Positions 1-11,239 of a stretch of 64,000 nt of DNA are shown piece after piece. The DNA comes from Spirochaetales bacterium (GTDB lineage: Bacteria > Spirochaetota > Spirochaetia > Sphaerochaetales > Sphaerochaetaceae): assembly GCA_018433865.1 (NCBI GenBank), contig JAHDQJ010000010.1, positions 1 to 64,000 of the forward strand, given 5' to 3'. Below the pieces are notes generated by a model, which made no database searches, had not been told where the DNA came from, and saw only the letters and a list, made by a program, of their open reading frames with translations. The translations under genes and the position numbers were made by a program. The first letter of the stretch is position 1; each line of letters starts with the position of its first letter.

Positions 1-170
1 AACACTAAAGATGGGAACCGGCCCCTCGTCTTGTTCTTCCTGCGGCACTATAGCACATTGAGGTACTCGGTAAACCCTGTTCTATACCCCAGTGACAAAG
101 TCCCTTTCATTACCTCAGGACTTTATCACTTCCCAATGAGGCAGATTGTTTGATTGATAAAACATTTTGC

Positions 171-199
171 TTTACCGCAGGATGAAGTTTGGGTACACT
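171..199 (+). promoter_or_regulatory. Candidate sigma-70 promoter of the aldolase-like gene
   Basis: TTTACC at 171-176 and TACACT at 194-199 are separated by 17 bp. The predicted transcription start is near 206, giving a leader of about 45 nt. The same TACACT -10 hexamer recurs at three other promoters in this window. Confidence 0.45.
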
Positions 200-220
200 A
201 GGTCTACTCTTTGCCGGGGT

Positions 221-238
221 GTGCCCAGTTGAGGGCAC
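221..238 (+). promoter_or_regulatory. Leader hairpin just upstream of the ribosome binding site
   Basis: GTGCCC (221-226) pairs perfectly with GGGCAC (233-238) around a six-base loop and ends two bases before the AAGGAAG-type ribosome binding site at 240-246. It has no T-run, so it is not an intrinsic terminator. A role in mRNA stability or translation is only a guess. Confidence 0.3.
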
Positions 239-250
239 GAAGGAAGTGTG

Positions 251-886
251 ATGGTGGATGCGATAACCAGACAGTTGGCGCAGATCAGATTCATACCGAT
301 GATCAAGAGCGTCGGGGTTGACCAGGCCGATTCACTGGGCTCAGCATTGTTGTCCGGGGGATTGCCCGCGGCGAACATCAGCCAGCAGACGGATGACGGA
401 CTGGAGCTGTTGCGTTTGATTGCTTCCCGTTTTCCCTCGATCATCGCGGGTGGGGGGAATGTCCAGACGGTCGGGGAGGCCCGCAACGCGATCGAAGCGG
501 GTGCCCGTTTCATTTTCTCTCCCCTGTTCGACCCTGAGATGATCATGTACTGCCAAGGACTCGGAGTACCGATCTACCCGGTGACCAAGGATGGCGTGCT
601 CGCGGTCGAACAGAGCTTGAAGGTCCTCGGGTTCTACCCGGTCGAGCGGTTGGGTGGCCTTCCGGTCATCGACCACCTTGCCGACCGATTCGGATTGCGA
701 TTCATCGTCGCGGGAGGCATCACCGAGCAGTCGGCGATGGGATACCTCGAAAACAAGCACATCGTCGCGGTCACGGGAAGCTGGATGATCGATCCGATGC
801 ATGTCGCTTCGGATCAGTGGTCACTCGTGGTCAAGAGCTTGCGAACATGTGCCGCGTTGGGGACCACGGCGACGATCCGCAGATGA
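251..886 (+). CDS. KDPG/KHG aldolase (Eda)-like protein lacking the catalytic residues
   Basis: This 211-residue protein aligns along its whole length with 2-keto-3-deoxy-6-phosphogluconate aldolase (Eda, class I TIM barrel). The ATG at 251 follows AGGA at 241-244. Compared with E. coli Eda from memory, the Schiff-base lysine (K133, in KFFPAE) is glycine here (residue 127, in GFYPVE). The general base E45 is Asn42, R49 is Gln46, T73 is Asn70 and T161 is Ala154. The phosphate-site GGI and GSW motifs remain. Aldolase chemistry by the known mechanism is therefore unlikely. It may be a pseudoenzyme, a binding protein or a changed enzyme. The neighbouring macrodomain gene converges on it, and no sugar-acid genes are beside it, though the left flank is cut off. 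Confidence 0.8.
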   Translation: MVDAITRQLAQIRFIPMIKSVGVDQADSLGSALLSGGLPAANISQQTDDGLELLRLIASRFPSIIAGGGNVQTVGEARNAIEAGARFIFSPLFDPEMIMYCQGLGVPIYPVTKDGVLAVEQSLKVLGFYPVERLGGLPVIDHLADRFGLRFIVAGGITEQSAMGYLENKHIVAVTGSWMIDPMHVASDQWSLVVKSLRTCAALGTTATIRR

Positions 887-893
887 CGATATC

Positions 894-1421
894 TCACCGC
901 TTGTTCGAAAGCACGCTCTCATACATCTCGAATGTCCTTCTGTCGAAGCACACGAATGACACGGAAGCGATTGTTTCCGGTCCGTACGATCGCAGGCATG
1001 CGTCTACCGTGGAAACGGCTAGCATCGCCGCCTCAGCCGCAGGATATCCGTAGGCACCTGTGCTGATGGCGGGGAACGCGATGGTGCGGTCTCCGAGTGC
1101 GACAGCCGTTTCGAGACACCGTCGGTAGCAGGAAGCCAGCTTCCGCGCTTCTCCTTGGCCTCCTCCGTGCCAGATCGGCCCTACGGTATGGATGATGTGG
1201 CGGGCATCCAAGCGATAGGCCTTGGTGGCCTTCGCCTCTCCTGTATCGCAACCCCCAAGGGTCATGCACTCCGCCAAGAGTTCTCTCCCCGCTGCCCGAT
1301 GGATCGCGCCATCCACTCCCGATCCGCCGAGGAGCGTGCCGTTCGCGGCATTCACGATCGCATCGACCGTACAGTGGGTGATATCTCCTTCGATTGCCCG
1401 CATTCTCTTGTCCACGGCCAT
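894..1421 (-). CDS. Macrodomain protein, O-acetyl-ADP-ribose deacetylase type (YmdB-like)
   Basis: This 175-residue single macrodomain probably hydrolyses O-acetyl-ADP-ribose or removes ADP-ribose from acidic residues in the cytoplasm. Visible motifs are GDITH, VDAIVNAAN, the glycine-rich LLGGSGVDGAIH loop, CDTGEAK, HTVGPIWHGG and the second binding loop STGAYGYP. These match YmdB/MacroD-type enzymes. I chose the ATG at 1421 because AGGAGGG precedes it by seven bases; the frame stays open further upstream without a site. A TATACT -10 lies at 1446-1441 on this strand, back to back with the sugar-operon promoter. No NAD-linked partner gene is adjacent. Confidence 0.9.
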   Translation of the reverse strand: MAVDKRMRAIEGDITHCTVDAIVNAANGTLLGGSGVDGAIHRAAGRELLAECMTLGGCDTGEAKATKAYRLDARHIIHTVGPIWHGGGQGEARKLASCYRRCLETAVALGDRTIAFPAISTGAYGYPAAEAAMLAVSTVDACLRSYGPETIASVSFVCFDRRTFEMYESVLSNKR

Positions 1422-1465
1422 CGCATCCCTCCTGATACGGAGTATATCACAGGGAAAAATAATCA

Positions 1466-1494
1466 TTGACAGTGTGATGTTGCTGTGTGACAAT
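1466..1494 (+). promoter_or_regulatory. Promoter of the alpha-glucoside operon
   Basis: A perfect -35 TTGACA (1466-1471) is followed after 17 bp by GACAAT (1489-1494). The predicted start, near 1501, falls inside the LacI-type operator, so repression by blocking RNA polymerase is the natural reading. Confidence 0.7.
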
Positions 1495-1498
1495 AAGT

Positions 1499-1514
1499 GT
1501 GGAAACGCTTCCAC
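1499..1514 (+). promoter_or_regulatory. LacI/GalR-family operator
   Basis: GTGGAAAC at 1499-1506 and GCTTCCAC at 1507-1514 form a 16-bp palindrome with one mismatch and the central CG typical of LacI-family operators. It starts five bases after the -10 hexamer and covers the predicted transcription start. The LacI-type gene at 9369-10334, which converges on the end of this operon, is the obvious candidate repressor. That link is inferred. Confidence 0.75.
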
Positions 1515-1633
1515 GACTATGGTGCAGCGTATGGTTCCTACCCACGAGATGATCGGAAAGCGGCTTTGCCTTGCGTGAAACACGCATCGGACAATCATAT
1601 CGCCCGGAACAACCGGGCATGAAGGAGAGGAGT

Positions 1634-2908
1634 ATGAGAAAACTGATTCTTGTAGCGCTGATCATCCTGCTGATACTGCCTGCGGCGTTCGCGGCGGGAC
1701 AGAAAGGTACGGCAGAAGCGTCGGCGAAGACTGTCACTGTCTTCGGGGCGTTCGTCGATGAAGAGGCACGCAGGTTCGAAGAAGCCATCAAGCCGTTCGA
1801 GGAAAGAACCGGCATTGATGTCATCTACGAGGGATCGAAGGATTTTGAAACTTTGATCAGTGTCCGTGTCGAGGGGGGCAATCCTCCCGATATCGCGGGA
1901 CTTCCCCAACCCGGCTTGATGGTCAACTTCGCATCCCAGGGGAAGTTGGTACCGATGTGGTCTTCGCTGATCGCGACGATCGACAAGAATTATGCTCCGG
2001 TCTGGAAGAGCCTCGGTTCCTACGACGGAACACCCTATGGTGTGTTCCACCGGGTGAATGCGAAGAGTTTCGTCTGGTATCCGAAGAAGGCGTGGGCGAC
2101 AGCGGGGTATCAGGTACCCACGACGTGGAATGAGTTGACGGCACTGATGGACAAGATGGTGGCGAACGGCCACACTCCTTGGGCTGTGGGGATCGAATCG
2201 GGCGGAGCGACCGGGTGGGTCGGCACCGACTGGATCGAGGATATCATGCTCAGGACCGCCGGACCCGATGTCTATGACAAGTGGGTCTCCAATGAGATTC
2301 CGTTCAATGCTCCCGAAGTCAAGCAGGCCTTCGATGTGCTCGGCAAGATCTGGTTGAATCCGAAGTATGTGTACGGTGGCACCAATACGATCCTGACCAC
2401 CAGCTTCGGTGATGCACAGCGGCCGATGTTCGACAACCCGCCGAAGGCGTGGATGCACCGGCAGGGCAACTTCATCACCGGTTTCTTCCCCGAGAACATC
2501 CAGGCGAACCTGACCGACGAGGTGGGTGTGTTCCCGCTTCCTGCGATCAATGATGAGTTCGGAATCCCGGTGCTCGGCGGAGGCGACCAATTCGTAGTCT
2601 TCAACGACCGCCCGGAAGTGAGGCAGTTCATGGAATTCCTCGCGACCTGGGAATCGGGAGAGTCGTGGGCGAAAGCCGGCGGAGCGCTCTTCCCCTACCT
2701 GAACCAAGACCTTGATGCTTATCCGAATGAGATCGAACGATCTCTCGCGGAGGCGCTCGTGAATGCCAAGGTCTTCCGCTTCGACGCTTCCGACCTGATG
2801 CCTGCCCAAGTCGGTGCAGGATCTTTCTGGACCGGAATCGTCGACTGGGTGACGGGCAAGCCGTTGGATACGATGCTCAACGAAGTGCAGCGTTCCTGGC
2901 CCAAGTAA
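1634..2908 (+). CDS. Extracellular sugar-binding protein of an ABC transporter (SBP family 1)
   Basis: A 424-residue exported protein of the MalE/SBP_bac_1 type that should capture an oligosaccharide outside the inner membrane. It has a basic N-terminus, a long hydrophobic segment and an LPAAFAAGQK cleavage region resembling other spirochaete binding proteins. The ATG at 1634 follows GAAGGAGAGG at 1621-1630; an ATG at 1619 is possible but lies before that site. It is the first gene of an operon with two permeases, a GH65-phosphoglucomutase fusion and a GH4 enzyme, so an alpha-linked glucoside is the likely ligand. The exact sugar cannot be read from sequence. Confidence 0.88.
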   Translation: MRKLILVALIILLILPAAFAAGQKGTAEASAKTVTVFGAFVDEEARRFEEAIKPFEERTGIDVIYEGSKDFETLISVRVEGGNPPDIAGLPQPGLMVNFASQGKLVPMWSSLIATIDKNYAPVWKSLGSYDGTPYGVFHRVNAKSFVWYPKKAWATAGYQVPTTWNELTALMDKMVANGHTPWAVGIESGGATGWVGTDWIEDIMLRTAGPDVYDKWVSNEIPFNAPEVKQAFDVLGKIWLNPKYVYGGTNTILTTSFGDAQRPMFDNPPKAWMHRQGNFITGFFPENIQANLTDEVGVFPLPAINDEFGIPVLGGGDQFVVFNDRPEVRQFMEFLATWESGESWAKAGGALFPYLNQDLDAYPNEIERSLAEALVNAKVFRFDASDLMPAQVGAGSFWTGIVDWVTGKPLDTMLNEVQRSWPK

Positions 2909-2989
2909 CCGCAGATTGCATGCACCGGCATTCCCGGAAGGGAATCGCCGGTGCTGTCTTTTCGTATCACAGGCAATTCGGAGGTGACC

Positions 2990-4096
2990 ATGATGGAACG
3001 GAGGATCGAGGGGAAGAACCTGGGCGCACAGGCCTTGGTGGCGATCGGCAGGGTAGCGGTATCGCTGTTCGTTCCGATCGTAGCGTTCGTGATCCTGTGG
3101 GCCGGGTTCGTCTTCCTCAGGGACAGCAATGCAAGCCAGGGGATCATCGCCTTGGTTGCGATCATCTGGGGTGTCGGTGGTGTCGCCATGCTCTTCTGGG
3201 TTGCCGATTGGGTGGTCAACCGATTGCCCGTGATGGCAGCCAAGAAGCTGCAACCGTTCGTATTCGTCGGTCCTGCGCTGGTGATCCTTGCGTGGTATCT
3301 GTTCCTGCCCACCATGCGGTCGCTCTACCTGAGTTTCTTCGACGCACAATCGAAGACATTCGTGGGACTTGCAAACTATGTGTTCGCGTTCACCGACTCC
3401 AAGATGCTTGAATCGTTCGTGAACAACCTGTTGTGGATCATCCTCGGTACCGGCGGAGCCGTAGGATTCGGCCTGGTCATCGCCTTGCTTGCCGACCGCT
3501 CCCGGTTCGAGAAGGTCTTCAAGAGTCTCATTTTCATGCCGATGGCCATCTCGTTCGTCGGAGCCGGGGTCATCTGGCGGTTCGTCTATGCGTACAAGCC
3601 GGCAGGTGAGGACCAGATCGGATTGCTCAACGCATTGGTGAGCCTGTTCGGCAAGGATCCGCAAGCGTGGTTCACGCTCCGTCCGTGGAACAATATATTC
3701 CTCATCGTGATCCTCATCTGGTTGCAGACCGGCTATGCGATGGTCATCATCTCGGCAGCGCTCAAGGGTGTTCCCGATTCGATCATCGAAGCGGGAAGGA
3801 TCGATGGGGCGGGGGAGATGCGGATCATCCGTTCGATCATCGTCCCCTATATCTTCTCCACCTTGGTGACCGTATCGACGACGATCATCATCATCAGCCT
3901 GAAGATCTTCGATATCGTATTCACCATGACCAACGGCAACTACGGGACGGAGGTGATCGCAAGCATGCAATACAAGCAGATGTTCCGATTCTACCACTAT
4001 GGGCGCGGCTCTGCGATCGCCATCGTGTTGGTGATCGCCGTCATTCCGGTGATGTGGTACAACCTGCGGCAGTTCGGCAAGCGGGAGGGATTCTGA
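2990..4096 (+). CDS. Sugar ABC transporter permease, MalF type
   Basis: A 368-residue inner-membrane permease with several hydrophobic segments and the cytoplasmic EAA loop near its C-terminus (EAGRIDGAGEMRIIRSI), which contacts the ATPase. The N-terminal part has two extra membrane segments before the conserved core, as in MalF proteins. The ATG at 2990 follows GGAGGTG. It pairs with the MalG-type permease that starts one base after its stop region. No ATPase gene is present in the operon, so a shared MsmK/UgpC-type ATPase encoded elsewhere is probably used. Confidence 0.9.
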   Translation: MMERRIEGKNLGAQALVAIGRVAVSLFVPIVAFVILWAGFVFLRDSNASQGIIALVAIIWGVGGVAMLFWVADWVVNRLPVMAAKKLQPFVFVGPALVILAWYLFLPTMRSLYLSFFDAQSKTFVGLANYVFAFTDSKMLESFVNNLLWIILGTGGAVGFGLVIALLADRSRFEKVFKSLIFMPMAISFVGAGVIWRFVYAYKPAGEDQIGLLNALVSLFGKDPQAWFTLRPWNNIFLIVILIWLQTGYAMVIISAALKGVPDSIIEAGRIDGAGEMRIIRSIIVPYIFSTLVTVSTTIIIISLKIFDIVFTMTNGNYGTEVIASMQYKQMFRFYHYGRGSAIAIVLVIAVIPVMWYNLRQFGKREGF

Positions 4097-4097
4097 T

Positions 4098-5003
4098 ATG
4101 GCACGGGCGAACGTGAAAAAGAGCAACTGGACCATCATCGTCAACCTGGTACTCTTGGTGCTGGTCATCATCTGGAGCATTCCCATCCTCGGGTTGTTCA
4201 TCTCATCGGTGCGGCCTCAGGACAATGTGCTGACTACCGGTTGGTGGACCGTCTTCGGCGAGCACGGGGAGCTCACGTTCGACAACTACCGGCAAGTCCT
4301 GGGGGGAAGGGGGTACACATTTGTCGATTCAGCAGGAAACACGGTGCGTGCGAGCGGGGACAACCTCTCGCAAGCCTTCCTCAACAGTTTCACCGTCACC
4401 ATTCCCTCGGTGATCATCCCGATCCTCATTGCCTCCGCGGCGGCGTTCGCATTCGCCTGGATGATCTTCCCCGGCCGCAAGTTCTTCTTCACGACGGTCG
4501 TGGCGCTACTGGTCGTGCCCCTGCAGATCGCCTTGATTCCGATCCTCCGCGATTACCAAGGATTGGGGTTGACCGGTTCCTACCTGGGCATCTGGCTCGC
4601 ACACACGGGATTCGGTCTTCCGCTTGGCATCTATCTTCTCTACAATTACATCTCGACGATCCCACGCGACGTCTTCGAGTCGGCGTTCCTCGATGGTGCC
4701 CGGCCGATGATCGTATTCTCCCGTCTGGTGTTGCCGCTCTCCGTTCCCGCGATCGCCTCCCTTGCGATCTTCCAATTCCTGTGGGTCTGGAACGACCTGC
4801 TGGTCGCCCTGGTCTTCCTCGGCGGGACCGCCGACGTCGCGGTACTCACCCAGCGACTGGCGACCATGGTCGGCTCGAGGGGACAGGATTGGCATCTGCT
4901 CACCGCCGGAGCCTTCGTCGCGATGGTGGTTCCGCTTGCCGTGTTCTTCGGACTGCAGCGCTATTTCGTCGAAGGTCTCATGGCAGGATCGGTGAAGGGG
5001 TAG
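4098..5003 (+). CDS. Sugar ABC transporter permease, MalG type
   Basis: A 301-residue inner-membrane permease, partner of the MalF-type protein just upstream. It begins with a cytoplasmic stretch and a first membrane segment, carries an EAA-type loop (FESAFLDGARPMIVFSRLV), and ends with the YFVEGLMAGSVKG tail typical of MalG-family permeases. A larger loop after the first membrane segment (about residues 35-95) faces outside in this family. The four- to five-base gaps on both sides indicate one transcript with the binding protein and the phosphorylase fusion. Confidence 0.9.
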   Translation: MARANVKKSNWTIIVNLVLLVLVIIWSIPILGLFISSVRPQDNVLTTGWWTVFGEHGELTFDNYRQVLGGRGYTFVDSAGNTVRASGDNLSQAFLNSFTVTIPSVIIPILIASAAAFAFAWMIFPGRKFFFTTVVALLVVPLQIALIPILRDYQGLGLTGSYLGIWLAHTGFGLPLGIYLLYNYISTIPRDVFESAFLDGARPMIVFSRLVLPLSVPAIASLAIFQFLWVWNDLLVALVFLGGTADVAVLTQRLATMVGSRGQDWHLLTAGAFVAMVVPLAVFFGLQRYFVEGLMAGSVKG

Positions 5004-5006
5004 GTC

Positions 5007-7946
5007 ATGACATACGATTCCTGGTCGCTCACGGAAGAGCGGTTCGAGGAGGAATTCCTCGCCCGCTCGGAGAGCCTGTTCTCCATCGGCAACGGGTATC
5101 TCGGATTCCGGGGCTTTTTCTGTGAACGGGAGCCTGCCCATCACCCCGGTGTGTTCATCAACGGATTCTATGAGATATCACCGATCCATTACGGTGAGGA
5201 TGCCTATGGCTTCGCACGATTCAACCAGACGATGGTGGATCTTCCCGATTGCCGCTATCTCACCGTGACGGTCGACGGACAACGGTTCGACATGAAGTCT
5301 GTCCAAGTCGACGAGTATCGCAAGAAACTCGATTTCCATACGGGGATGCTCAGTCGTACCGTACGGTGGACCACCACGGAGGGCAAGAAGGTCGTCACCA
5401 CCTGGGAGACGATCATCTCCATGGAACATAAGCATGTCGGTGCGGTGCGCCTGCAGGTATCATGTGCATCGGATGCACGCATCAGCGTATCCTCATCGAT
5501 CGCAATGCCTGCGAGCAGGGCGGTGGCAGCTCTCGATCCGCGTGTGGGGACAATGCTGAACCGACCGAGCCTGACCTCTCTCGGATATCGGCTGTTGCAC
5601 GATGATGACAAGCATCCGATCGGGTTCGAGGGGGCATTCAAGACAGTGGAAAGCGCGCTTCACCTGACTTGCGGTGCGTTGCATGAGTGTACGCTATCTG
5701 CCTCCGTTGAGACAAGGACGGAGGAGGATGGACCACCCTCGCTCGTGTTCATGCATGAGGGCCGTTCGTTGGAGCTCTGCAAGCACTTCTACTACCTCAG
5801 TGCAGGGAGACCCGGCGAATCATTCCCGCTCGAGACGATACGAAAGGGGAAGTTCGGTCGGGCATGTACCCGATGGCATGATCTGGTCGCCTCGCAGCGC
5901 AACCATTATATCCAATTCTGGGAGCACGCTCTCGTCACGGTCGAGGGAGATGAGAAGATCGAACAAGCGCTCCGGTTCAATCTCTTGCAACTGCACCAAT
6001 CGACGGGAACCGACGGGATGTCGAGCCTTGCTGCGAAGGGATTGACCGGTTCCGGGTATGAGGGACATTATTTTTGGGACACGGAGATCTACGGCATGCC
6101 GTTCTTCAACCACACGGACAGCAAGACTGCACGCGCGTTGATCTCATACCGCATTTCGTTGCTCGACCATGGACGCGCACGGGCGAGGGATCTGGCACAG
6201 CGGGGAGCACTCTATCCCTGGAGAACGATCAACGGTTGGGAGGCCTCCGCCTATTTTCCAGCGGGAACGGCGCAGTACCACATCAACGCCGATATCGCCT
6301 ACAGCATCTTCCAATACCTTGCAATCACCGACGACCTCAGCATCCTGACCGAAGGGGGGGCGGAACTGCTCTTCGAGACGGCGCGGCTGTGGTATGATCT
6401 CGGGTATTTCAATCCCGAGAAGAAAGGCCTATTCTGCATCAACGAAGTCACCGGTCCCGATGAGTACTCTGCGTTGGTCGACAACAACGCCTATACCAAC
6501 TTGATGGCCCGTTACCACCTCGGGCACGTCTGTTCGCTTGCCCGGCGCATGCGCCGGGACATGCCCGACGAATGGAACAGGATCACGAAGGTCCTGAACC
6601 TTCAGGAGGAGGAGCTCGAGCAGTTCGCGCAGGCAGCGAACATGATGTACATTCCGTTCGATGCACAGCGGGGGATCACGTTGCAGGACGACTCTTTCAT
6701 CCATCGCGAGAAGTGGGATGCCGCGAAACGGGGGCCGATCAAGCATCCGATGTTGCTGCATTACCACCCGCTGGTGATCTATCGCCACCAGCTGCTCAAG
6801 CAAGCCGATACGGTCCTCGCGATGTTCCTGTTGCATGATGCCTTCCCTTGGTACCTGCGCAAGCGGAACTTCGATTTCTACGAACCGCTGACCACCGGAG
6901 ACAGTTCCCTCTCCGCGTGCATCCAAGGGATCATGGCGTTCGATTGCGGGTATGTCAGTCTCGGCGATGCCTACAGCAGGCAGACGGCACTGATGGATAT
7001 CGATGATTTGCATCATAATACGAAGGACGGCTTGCATACCGCAGCGATGGCCGGCTCCTGGATGGCCTTGGTCTACGGGATGGCGGGGTACCGCATGGTG
7101 GACGGCGTGCCTGCATTCCGTCCCCAACTGCCCGGCTCGTACCGCAGTGTCTCCTTCAGCCTGAGCTTCCCATCCTCCCTGTTGCACATCACGATCGATC
7201 GGCAACGGACTGTGTATCAGGTGAAAGGCACCCCCCGTACGATCCGTCACCGCTCCGAGACGGTCGTGGTGGGCTCGGAGGCGATTTCTCGTCCGACCCG
7301 TGCAACCTGCAAGGCAGTGATCTTCGATCTCGATGGTGTGGTCACCTCGACCGACGAGTACCACTATCGTGCGTGGAAGCGCCTTGCCGATGCACACGGG
7401 TGGGCCTTCGACCAGGAGGTGAACCGACGGTTGCGCGGGATCAGCCGCATGCAATCGCTCCAGGTGATCCTTGATCACAATGGCGTGACACTCCCTACGT
7501 CGGAGATGGATACGCTGTGTGAGCTGAAGAACCGCTGGTACCGTGCCTCGCTCGCTTCGCTGACACCACAGGACATCCTTGACGGGATCGTACCGTTGTT
7601 GGACGAATTGCGCAGACGGGGCATCGCCACCGCCATCGCCTCCGCGAGCCGGAACGCTCCCTATATCTTGGGACGACTGGGTCTCGAAAAGACCTTCGAT
7701 GCCGTCGTCCCTGCACATGAGGTGGTGCGCGGCAAACCCGATCCGGAGATCTTCGCCAGGGCTGCCGACCTGCTCGGCCTCTACCCGGAGGAGTGCACCG
7801 GCATCGAGGATGCACAAGCGGGAGTGGATGCGCTCAGGGAGGCTATGATGCGGACCGTCGGAGTGGGTCCTGCGGTCAATGCCGCCGATTGTGATGCCCA
7901 CGTGGATTCGACCGGTCAACTTGCGATCGATCTTCTGCTCTTCTGA
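5007..7946 (+). CDS. Fusion of GH65 disaccharide phosphorylase and beta-phosphoglucomutase
   Basis: A 979-residue two-enzyme protein. Residues 1 to about 745 form a glycoside hydrolase family 65 phosphorylase, with the general acid Glu486 in the GPDEY motif. GH65 enzymes split alpha-glucosyl disaccharides with phosphate into glucose and beta-glucose 1-phosphate. Residues about 768-979 form a HAD-superfamily beta-phosphoglucomutase with the DxD nucleophile pair Asp774/Asp776 in FDLDGVV, the expected next step to glucose 6-phosphate. The two genes are usually separate, so the fusion may channel the phosphosugar. Substrate choice (maltose, kojibiose, trehalose, nigerose) cannot be assigned. It lies between the permease and GH4 genes of the operon. 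Confidence 0.92.
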   Translation: MTYDSWSLTEERFEEEFLARSESLFSIGNGYLGFRGFFCEREPAHHPGVFINGFYEISPIHYGEDAYGFARFNQTMVDLPDCRYLTVTVDGQRFDMKSVQVDEYRKKLDFHTGMLSRTVRWTTTEGKKVVTTWETIISMEHKHVGAVRLQVSCASDARISVSSSIAMPASRAVAALDPRVGTMLNRPSLTSLGYRLLHDDDKHPIGFEGAFKTVESALHLTCGALHECTLSASVETRTEEDGPPSLVFMHEGRSLELCKHFYYLSAGRPGESFPLETIRKGKFGRACTRWHDLVASQRNHYIQFWEHALVTVEGDEKIEQALRFNLLQLHQSTGTDGMSSLAAKGLTGSGYEGHYFWDTEIYGMPFFNHTDSKTARALISYRISLLDHGRARARDLAQRGALYPWRTINGWEASAYFPAGTAQYHINADIAYSIFQYLAITDDLSILTEGGAELLFETARLWYDLGYFNPEKKGLFCINEVTGPDEYSALVDNNAYTNLMARYHLGHVCSLARRMRRDMPDEWNRITKVLNLQEEELEQFAQAANMMYIPFDAQRGITLQDDSFIHREKWDAAKRGPIKHPMLLHYHPLVIYRHQLLKQADTVLAMFLLHDAFPWYLRKRNFDFYEPLTTGDSSLSACIQGIMAFDCGYVSLGDAYSRQTALMDIDDLHHNTKDGLHTAAMAGSWMALVYGMAGYRMVDGVPAFRPQLPGSYRSVSFSLSFPSSLLHITIDRQRTVYQVKGTPRTIRHRSETVVVGSEAISRPTRATCKAVIFDLDGVVTSTDEYHYRAWKRLADAHGWAFDQEVNRRLRGISRMQSLQVILDHNGVTLPTSEMDTLCELKNRWYRASLASLTPQDILDGIVPLLDELRRRGIATAIASASRNAPYILGRLGLEKTFDAVVPAHEVVRGKPDPEIFARAADLLGLYPEECTGIEDAQAGVDALREAMMRTVGVGPAVNAADCDAHVDSTGQLAIDLLLF

Positions 7947-10340: not shown

Positions 10341-10369
10341 ACTGTAGTGGTTTTTCCCCCCTCAGTCAA
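10341..10369 (-). promoter_or_regulatory. Promoter placing the lacI-type mRNA start at its ATG
   Basis: On the minus strand, TTGACT (10369-10364) and TACAGT (10346-10341) are 17 bp apart. Only TTTTTC separates the -10 from the ATG at 10334, so transcription should begin at or next to the start codon. It overlaps the last codons of the DUF3343 gene. Confidence 0.65.
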
Positions 10370-10625
10370 CGTGTGCGTTGCAGATGTACAGCCGCCCCTC
10401 TTTGAGTGTCGCGTGCGTGATCCCGTATCGGCTCGTACCGAGGGCATCGATGGCCTCCTGCCTGTCGGAGGCACTGAGCGAGAGGGCTATGCCGCAATCG
10501 GCGGTGATCTCTGTCGGGGTGGGAATCACCTGATACGCGACGGAAGCACTGTCGAGGTGCCGCTGGCAGGCGATCGCATTGTGCGTCGATCCGAAGCTGA
10601 GAATGATCCGTTGCAGCGTACTCAC
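10362..10625 (-). CDS. DUF3343 small protein (putative Se/S carrier-like)
   Basis: An 87-residue cytoplasmic protein of the DUF3343 family, small proteins often found beside YedF and proposed to handle selenium or sulfur. The ADCGIALSLS segment carries the family's conserved cysteine-glycine. Its start overlaps the last codon of the YedF gene by four bases (10622-10625), a translational-coupling arrangement. It is the last gene of the PHP-yedF-DUF3343 operon. The biochemical role is unknown, and the selenium link is inferred from YedF and from the selD/yqeC operon 14 kb away. Confidence 0.75.
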   Translation of the reverse strand: MSTLQRIILSFGSTHNAIACQRHLDSASVAYQVIPTPTEITADCGIALSLSASDRQEAIDALGTSRYGITHATLKEGRLYICNAHVD

Positions 10626-11221
10626 AGAGCGATCACCCGCGGGGAATTCACAAGTCTGTTGGTGATCTCATACATGTTCGCCACCGTACCAACTTGCAGC
10701 TTGTCCAACAGGCCATGGTAGTCGAGGCAGGTGCCACAGACCAGGATCTCGACTCCCCGTTGCTCGAGTGCCTTGAGGTTCTGTACGCATTGCGCATCCA
10801 CTGTAGCCAGCAACGCACCATTGTTCATGCAGACGATCGTCGAAGGCAATTCGTCTGTCTGACCGACCGTATAGAGGAACATCCTCATCAGGTTGCGTCC
10901 CAATTCCTGCGATCCCGAACCCATCGTATCCTTGCCAAGGAAAAGGATGTAGTCGCTCCCTGCGTGCCCAGGAGAGGGCTCGGCATCAGCTTCTGGGGAA
11001 TGTTCGTCGGTTGGGCACCTGAAGGTGACAGGGAAGGGGGTGCTGCCGGTGTCGATATCCACGGTGTATCCCTGGCTGTGCGCAAGTTTTTTCAGGTTCT
11101 CCACCGCCGCCTGGTTATCGACCAAGACCGTGAACAGCCGCTCGTTGGCGTCGATCGCCTTCTTGGCGAGCATGAAAGGGATCGGGCAGGCTTTTCCCGT
11201 TGCATCTATCGTGTTCGGCAT
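10622..11221 (-). CDS. yedF: Selenium metabolism protein YedF (TusA-like plus DsrE-like domains)
   Basis: A 199-residue protein. The N-terminal TusA/SirA-like domain carries the CPIP sulfur-carrier motif (ATGKACPIPFMLAKKAI, about residues 5-20). The C-terminal DsrE/DsrF-like domain carries CGTCLDYHGL near residue 165. This pairing defines the YedF family, which co-occurs with the selenium-use trait; the precise reaction is unknown. AGGAGG at 11233-11228 sets the start at 11221. The PHP gene ends 18 bases upstream and the DUF3343 gene overlaps downstream, so all three share a transcript. selD at 27.8 kb supports selenium use in this organism. Confidence 0.88.
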   Translation of the reverse strand: MPNTIDATGKACPIPFMLAKKAIDANERLFTVLVDNQAAVENLKKLAHSQGYTVDIDTGSTPFPVTFRCPTDEHSPEADAEPSPGHAGSDYILFLGKDTMGSGSQELGRNLMRMFLYTVGQTDELPSTIVCMNNGALLATVDAQCVQNLKALEQRGVEILVCGTCLDYHGLLDKLQVGTVANMYEITNRLVNSPRVIAL

Positions 11222-11239
11222 CTTCGACCTCCTGTGCAT

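Follow-up and report, generated by a model that had tools for sequence, protein, structure and literature searches.

A lysine-less member of the KDPG/KHG aldolase family in Sphaerochaetaceae, probably retained for a role outside Schiff-base chemistry

What is the role of a protein that has the barrel of a KDPG aldolase and no Schiff-base lysine? The question is raised by a reading frame near the left edge of a 64,000-nucleotide stretch of DNA (hereafter the window) from a Spirochaetales bacterium of the family Sphaerochaetaceae (GCA_018433865.1, contig JAHDQJ010000010.1). A preliminary description of the locus, made from the sequence alone, took the product for a retained pseudoenzyme, perhaps one that binds phosphosugars, a reading that the present analysis supports in part. 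We label this lysine-less protein of the KDPG/KHG aldolase family Eda* and give its residues in Escherichia coli Eda numbering throughout, except where the window protein is named (Table 1). The frame, which had been described as intact, runs unbroken from the ATG at 251 to the stop codon at 884–886, with a GTG at 248 or 254 as a possible alternative start.

Table 1 Features of the Eda* locus in the window
Feature	Coordinates	Strand	Remarks
Repeated-element end at contig edge	1–141		Five copies in genome; between Eda* and upstream HAD gene
Promoter-like site TTTACC-17 bp-TACACT	171–199	+	Ahead of Eda*; hexamers and spacing same in G001 and G002
Eda*	251–886	+	211 aa; open frame; PF01081 97 bits; AlphaFold2 pLDDT 96.4
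N42 replacing Glu45	374–376	+	Codon AAC; Asn in 28/28 relatives
Q46 replacing Arg49	386–388	+	Codon CAG; Gln in 27/28
N70 replacing Thr73	458–460	+	Codon AAT; Asn in 28/28
G127 replacing Schiff-base Lys133	629–631	+	Codon GGG; 26 Gly, 1 Ser, 1 Ala of 28, never Lys
A154 replacing Thr161	710–712	+	Codon GCG; Ala in 28/28
Macro-domain gene (O-acetyl-ADP-ribose deacetylase family)	894–1442	-	NF001664 216.6 bits, above cut-off; convergent; same place in G001 and G002
Sugar ABC substrate-binding protein	1634–2908	+	Below-cut-off matches to carbohydrate-binding families
Two sugar ABC permeases	2951–4096, 4098–5003	+	First: below-cut-off GlcT/UgpA; second: by position and translation
GH65-type glycoside phosphorylase fused to beta-phosphoglucomutase	5007–7946	+	PRK13807 428 bits (below cut-off); bPGM 232.9 bits (above)

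Profile score and predicted fold place Eda* in the PF01081 KDPG/KHG aldolase family by homology. Pfam returns one convincing match, to PF01081 over residues 7–194 (97.2 bits, E = 1.1e-27), and the gathering cut-off of 27.8 bits is exceeded by Eda* and by all the clade members listed, while the eda-type families of NCBIfam match below their cut-offs, TIGR01182 (eda) at 118.9 bits against a required 156. Among solved structures it matches KDPG aldolases best, such as 4e38 (E = 2.8e-30, nearly full length) and E. coli Eda. An AlphaFold2 model built on a 36-row alignment (pTM 0.92) predicts the KDPG-aldolase barrel and superposes in VIA-align on the nearest KDPG aldolases with Z scores of 28–30, and on 4e38, 1fwr and 2c0a with Z scores of 29–30 over 205–206 residues (rmsd 1.7–1.9); the KDPGal aldolase DgoA (2v81, 2v82) has the fold in common at a Z of about 24 and is thus farther from Eda* than Eda is, and other phosphosugar barrels, including 3-hexulose-6-phosphate synthase, follow at about 17–19.

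For the comparison of residues, Eda* was aligned to a reference sequence of E. coli Eda that we take to be correct, with Glu at position 45. The numbering and identities of that reference agree with PMC5334617, according to which Lys133 is catalytic and Glu45, Arg49, Thr73, Pro94 and Phe135 serve substrate recognition. All five substitutions reported earlier (E45 to Asn, R49 to Gln, T73 to Asn, K133 to Gly and T161 to Ala) hold in this alignment; the further statement that every key catalytic residue is replaced went too far, as the window protein keeps P94, E138, G162, G163 and S184 and has Tyr at position 135. Across the clade, E45, R49 and T73 of the substrate-recognition set are replaced, P94 is kept and position 135 is Tyr or Phe. 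Among 28 distinct Eda* sequences, none with K133, N45, S47, N73, Q75 and A161 are invariant and Q49 is found in all but one. Chance is excluded as the source of replacements that are invariant or nearly so in this many distinct relatives, and a frameshift or assembly error was dismissed on finding the same residues in separate assemblies. With K133, E45, R49 and T73 lost and the TIGR01182 cut-off missed, Eda* is most probably not a class I aldolase, in agreement with the preliminary description.

Compared more broadly, canonical Eda from E. coli (2c0a) and Vibrionales (4e38) shares with Eda* the full-length fold, P94, E138, G162, S184 and the GSW motif, at 24–36% identity to the canonical members compared, and differs from it in the Schiff-base lysine, in the residues at 45, 49, 73 and 161, in a three-residue deletion after strand 5 in Eda*, and in G163 and G182, which are altered in most of the clade. 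The phosphate motif had been described as kept. This is true of the window protein, which has G162, G163, G183 and S184, and untrue of the clade, in which G163 has become His in 22 and Ser in 3 of the 28 sequences and G182 has become Thr in 27. Gly stands at 163 in all 46 of the K133-bearing homologues compared, and its alteration in most members argues, as far as residue identities can, against a KDPG-like phosphate pose.

A class I aldolase could in principle survive the loss of K133 if the Schiff-base lysine had moved to another strand, and a changed lysine position has already been studied: PDB 1FWR, among the top structural matches to the Eda* model, is the E. coli Eda double mutant K133Q/T161K, its wild-type lysine site vacated as in Eda* and a lysine placed at 161. 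Unlike 1FWR, all 28 Eda* sequences have Ala at that position. The clade has no invariant lysine; the nearest to one is K22 at the end of strand 1 (K19 in the window protein), which is Lys in 27 of 28 sequences and Arg in G007, and the same position is basic in 31 of the 46 K133-bearing homologues. A displaced lysine, the finding that would have spoken for an active aldolase, is largely ruled out in this way; a moved Schiff base looks unlikely, and with E45, R49 and T73 gone as well we give the idea that Eda* remains a class I aldolase only a very small chance.

Eda* was sought in 61 genomes, and profiles were run against three sets (class, 395 genomes; family, 139; phylum, 393), in which scores fell into two groups, Eda* at 261 bits or more and canonical members at 170 bits or less. 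Eda* occurs, always with an intact frame, in 24 of 139 Sphaerochaetaceae genomes and in 4 of 22 genera (g1, g3, g6 and g21), and the 393 sampled genomes spanning the phylum gave none outside this family. When 84,980 species were scanned by motif, a method that demands exact short matches and could let remote members escape, clade-level matches came up only in records of Sphaerochaeta (among them Sphaerochaeta halotolerans), Sphaerochaetaceae or unclassified spirochaetes. Building a tree of lysine-less Eda homologues had been proposed as a check on the pseudoenzyme reading: with 20 lysine-less rows, 46 others and the seven signature columns left out, the lysine-less rows form one conserved branch with 100/100 support on a stem of 1.32 changes per column. 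Closest to this branch among canonical members is a set of Sphaerochaetaceae Eda that carry a C-terminal extension (93/78, not starred), and the exact sister group is uncertain because the stem is long.

The second proposed check, dN/dS, gave about 0.05–0.2 in related pairs with unsaturated synonymous sites, which indicates purifying selection and a retained gene; the value of 0.31 for one almost identical pair comes from very few substitutions. Conserved positions cluster on the barrel's C-terminal face, taken as strand ends plus three residues; there the Eda* clade has an entropy of 0.34 against 0.72 for the whole protein, much as in canonical Eda (0.36 against 0.91; permutation p about 1e-4 in both). 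The pocket presumably still matters, since a useless one would not be expected to be as conserved as that of true aldolases. The catalytic residues are lost and the gene is conserved under selection across taxa, as the term retained pseudoenzyme implies, and by its residues Eda* appears to be a retained, neofunctionalised, non-Schiff-base paralogue. No literature on lysine-less Eda was found in the open-access papers searched.

Against this stands the idea of a decaying copy heading for loss, for which there are two isolated cases: the genus g21 genome G036 has a relic of Eda*, and G275, a complete genome of genus g3, has no clade-level match. Given frames that stay intact in 24 genomes and four genera, dN/dS well below 1 and identical replacement residues throughout, this explanation keeps only a very low probability. 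For the clade as a whole we reject decay on the dN/dS and the shared conserved residues, although a single strain could still be losing the gene. The G036 relic (L126:6786-7250, minus strand) is broken by several stops, with NISQQS and LYPVVSLGG still readable, and no other PF01081 match above threshold was found in G036; holding only a broken Eda*, this genome can evidently dispense with the function.

KDPG aldolases are trimers, and nearly all genomes of the clade carry a separate PF01081 gene in addition to Eda*; the window's genome has a canonical Eda with E45, R49, T73, K133 and T161. Eda*, itself inactive, might then act on canonical Eda as its partner or regulator, with mixed trimers as one possible form. 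We consider this improbable: the two genes are unlinked in the window's genome (contigs C33 and C47), the Eda* stem is long, many Sphaerochaetaceae genomes have canonical Eda without Eda*, and a pure assembly subunit would have no need of conservation centred on the catalytic face. The canonical gene on C47 (G000:C47:156046; L001:1138-2106, minus strand) lies in the canonical group nearest Eda* and, unlike Eda*, keeps all catalytic residues. It has about 115 extra C-terminal residues, for which there is no Pfam match; a VOC-like identity, guessed by eye, was dropped for want of Pfam support. Long canonical Eda frames of more than 300 residues are common in Sphaerochaetaceae.

Downstream in the window lie genes for a sugar ABC transporter and a GH65-type phosphorylase, the latter in a single reading frame with beta-phosphoglucomutase, followed farther on by a GH4-type enzyme (family match below cut-off) and, by eye, a LacI-type regulator. 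Relatives of the substrate-binding protein adjoin Eda* in G001, G002, G022 and G419. Eda* directly precedes the ABC/GH65 genes in G022 and G419 (g21), with an L-ribulokinase-type gene on its other side, and precedes them across the macro-domain gene in the window's genome (G000), G001 and G002. In g6, Eda* follows a HAD gene without ABC/GH65 genes, and at 16 loci of genus g3 (apparently Sphaerochaeta) it directly follows a MATE transporter, a pairing limited to these loci and set aside. The sugar link is weak because the ABC/GH65 context is not universal, and the gene context, while hinting at sugar metabolism, is too inconsistent to name a pathway.

From the catalytic losses and the selection on the gene, and from the modelled fold, we favour, at a probability of roughly 55%, the reading that Eda* arose long ago as a duplicate of KDPG aldolase, dropped Schiff-base chemistry in Sphaerochaetaceae, kept its pocket and acts as a binding or sensing protein and not as an aldolase. 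The barrel and the mouth of the active site would have been retained for a new ligand, five catalytic or substrate residues being replaced in concert and an amide- and hydroxyl-rich set (N45, S47, Q49, N73 and Q75, with A161) becoming fixed. Those five polar side chains, which by homology line the pocket, could form a neutral site hydrogen-bonding a polyhydroxylated ligand. With the keto-acid residues lost and an alpha-glucoside transporter/GH65 locus adjoining in two genera, that ligand would most likely be a sugar or sugar phosphate that belongs to the alpha-glucoside pathway encoded nearby.

The same conserved face, resembling that of active aldolases, would also suit a genuine enzyme, such as an isomerase, epimerase or lyase, that acts on a sugar phosphate by a new reaction without a Schiff base. 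Position 138 is always acidic (26 Glu, 2 Asp) and position 22 always basic (27 Lys, 1 Arg), so that an acid/base reaction with E/D138 and K/R22 may be envisaged, and the distant structural matches include 3-hexulose-6-phosphate synthase, although a shared barrel shows no function. On the other hand, the basic residue at 22 is not new, being widespread in K133-bearing homologues, and the remaining pocket positions that never vary hold amides, Ser, Gly or Ala, with no obvious metal site or catalytic pair. We regard such an enzyme as possible but rather doubtful.

We tentatively propose, at a little under even odds, that in Sphaerochaetaceae a KDPG-aldolase barrel was turned either to a specific ligand that is new to it or to a new reaction without a Schiff base, its catalytic residues having been replaced in concert and then held fixed. 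In Eda* nature provides a clean example of an aldolase barrel whose mechanism appears to have been given up and whose pocket was kept, and close relatives that bear K133 are available for comparison within the same genomes. Databases that class Eda* as an aldolase are probably mistaken. All members checked score above the Pfam aldolase cut-off, and automatic annotation is therefore likely to assign an activity that is absent. N45, S47, N73, Q75 and A161, with Q49 in all but one sequence, provide a simple signature for finding and re-annotating the protein.

On its upstream side Eda* meets the contig edge. A 29-bp direct repeat at 142–170 recurs at the end of contig C1 (G000:C1:1-166), just after a HAD-IIB gene; the window's genome very probably therefore has the order KamA-like radical-SAM, HAD phosphatase, Eda*, as in G001, G002 and G007. 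A glycerol-1-phosphate-dehydrogenase-like gene is also present at the locus in these three genomes, where it adjoins the KamA-family gene (L034:10169-13617, minus strand; L035:3273-6900; L063:1180-3321, minus strand); in the window's genome this gene does not separate KamA from HAD. The KamA-family proteins there are 713–728 aa long and have a long N-terminal part without a family match. The promoter-like site ahead of Eda* is conserved in g1 and has one change in g6 (TTTACG-17-TACACT in G007), which suggests that Eda* may be transcribed on its own; a generic promoter scan did not report the 171–199 site, and Rfam gave no upstream RNA element within window positions 1–6000. The idea that an operon shared with the HAD and KamA-like genes would explain what Eda* does is weakened by this site in g1 and g6 and by the absence of HAD/KamA beside Eda* in g3 and g21.

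The end of the element, together with the 29-bp repeat on either side of the gap between the HAD gene and Eda* (window 1–170), has the pattern expected of an insertion with a long target duplication; one copy lies on the 3.2-kb contig C3, whose longest open frame, of 253 aa, has no Pfam match. Elsewhere in the window, two small adjacent genes occupy 10362–11239 on the minus strand. The longer has a TusA/SirA-like start (CPIPFMLAKKAI) and by eye resembles the selenium-metabolism protein YedF, and a similar pair is found near Eda* in G007 (L035:14052-14964).
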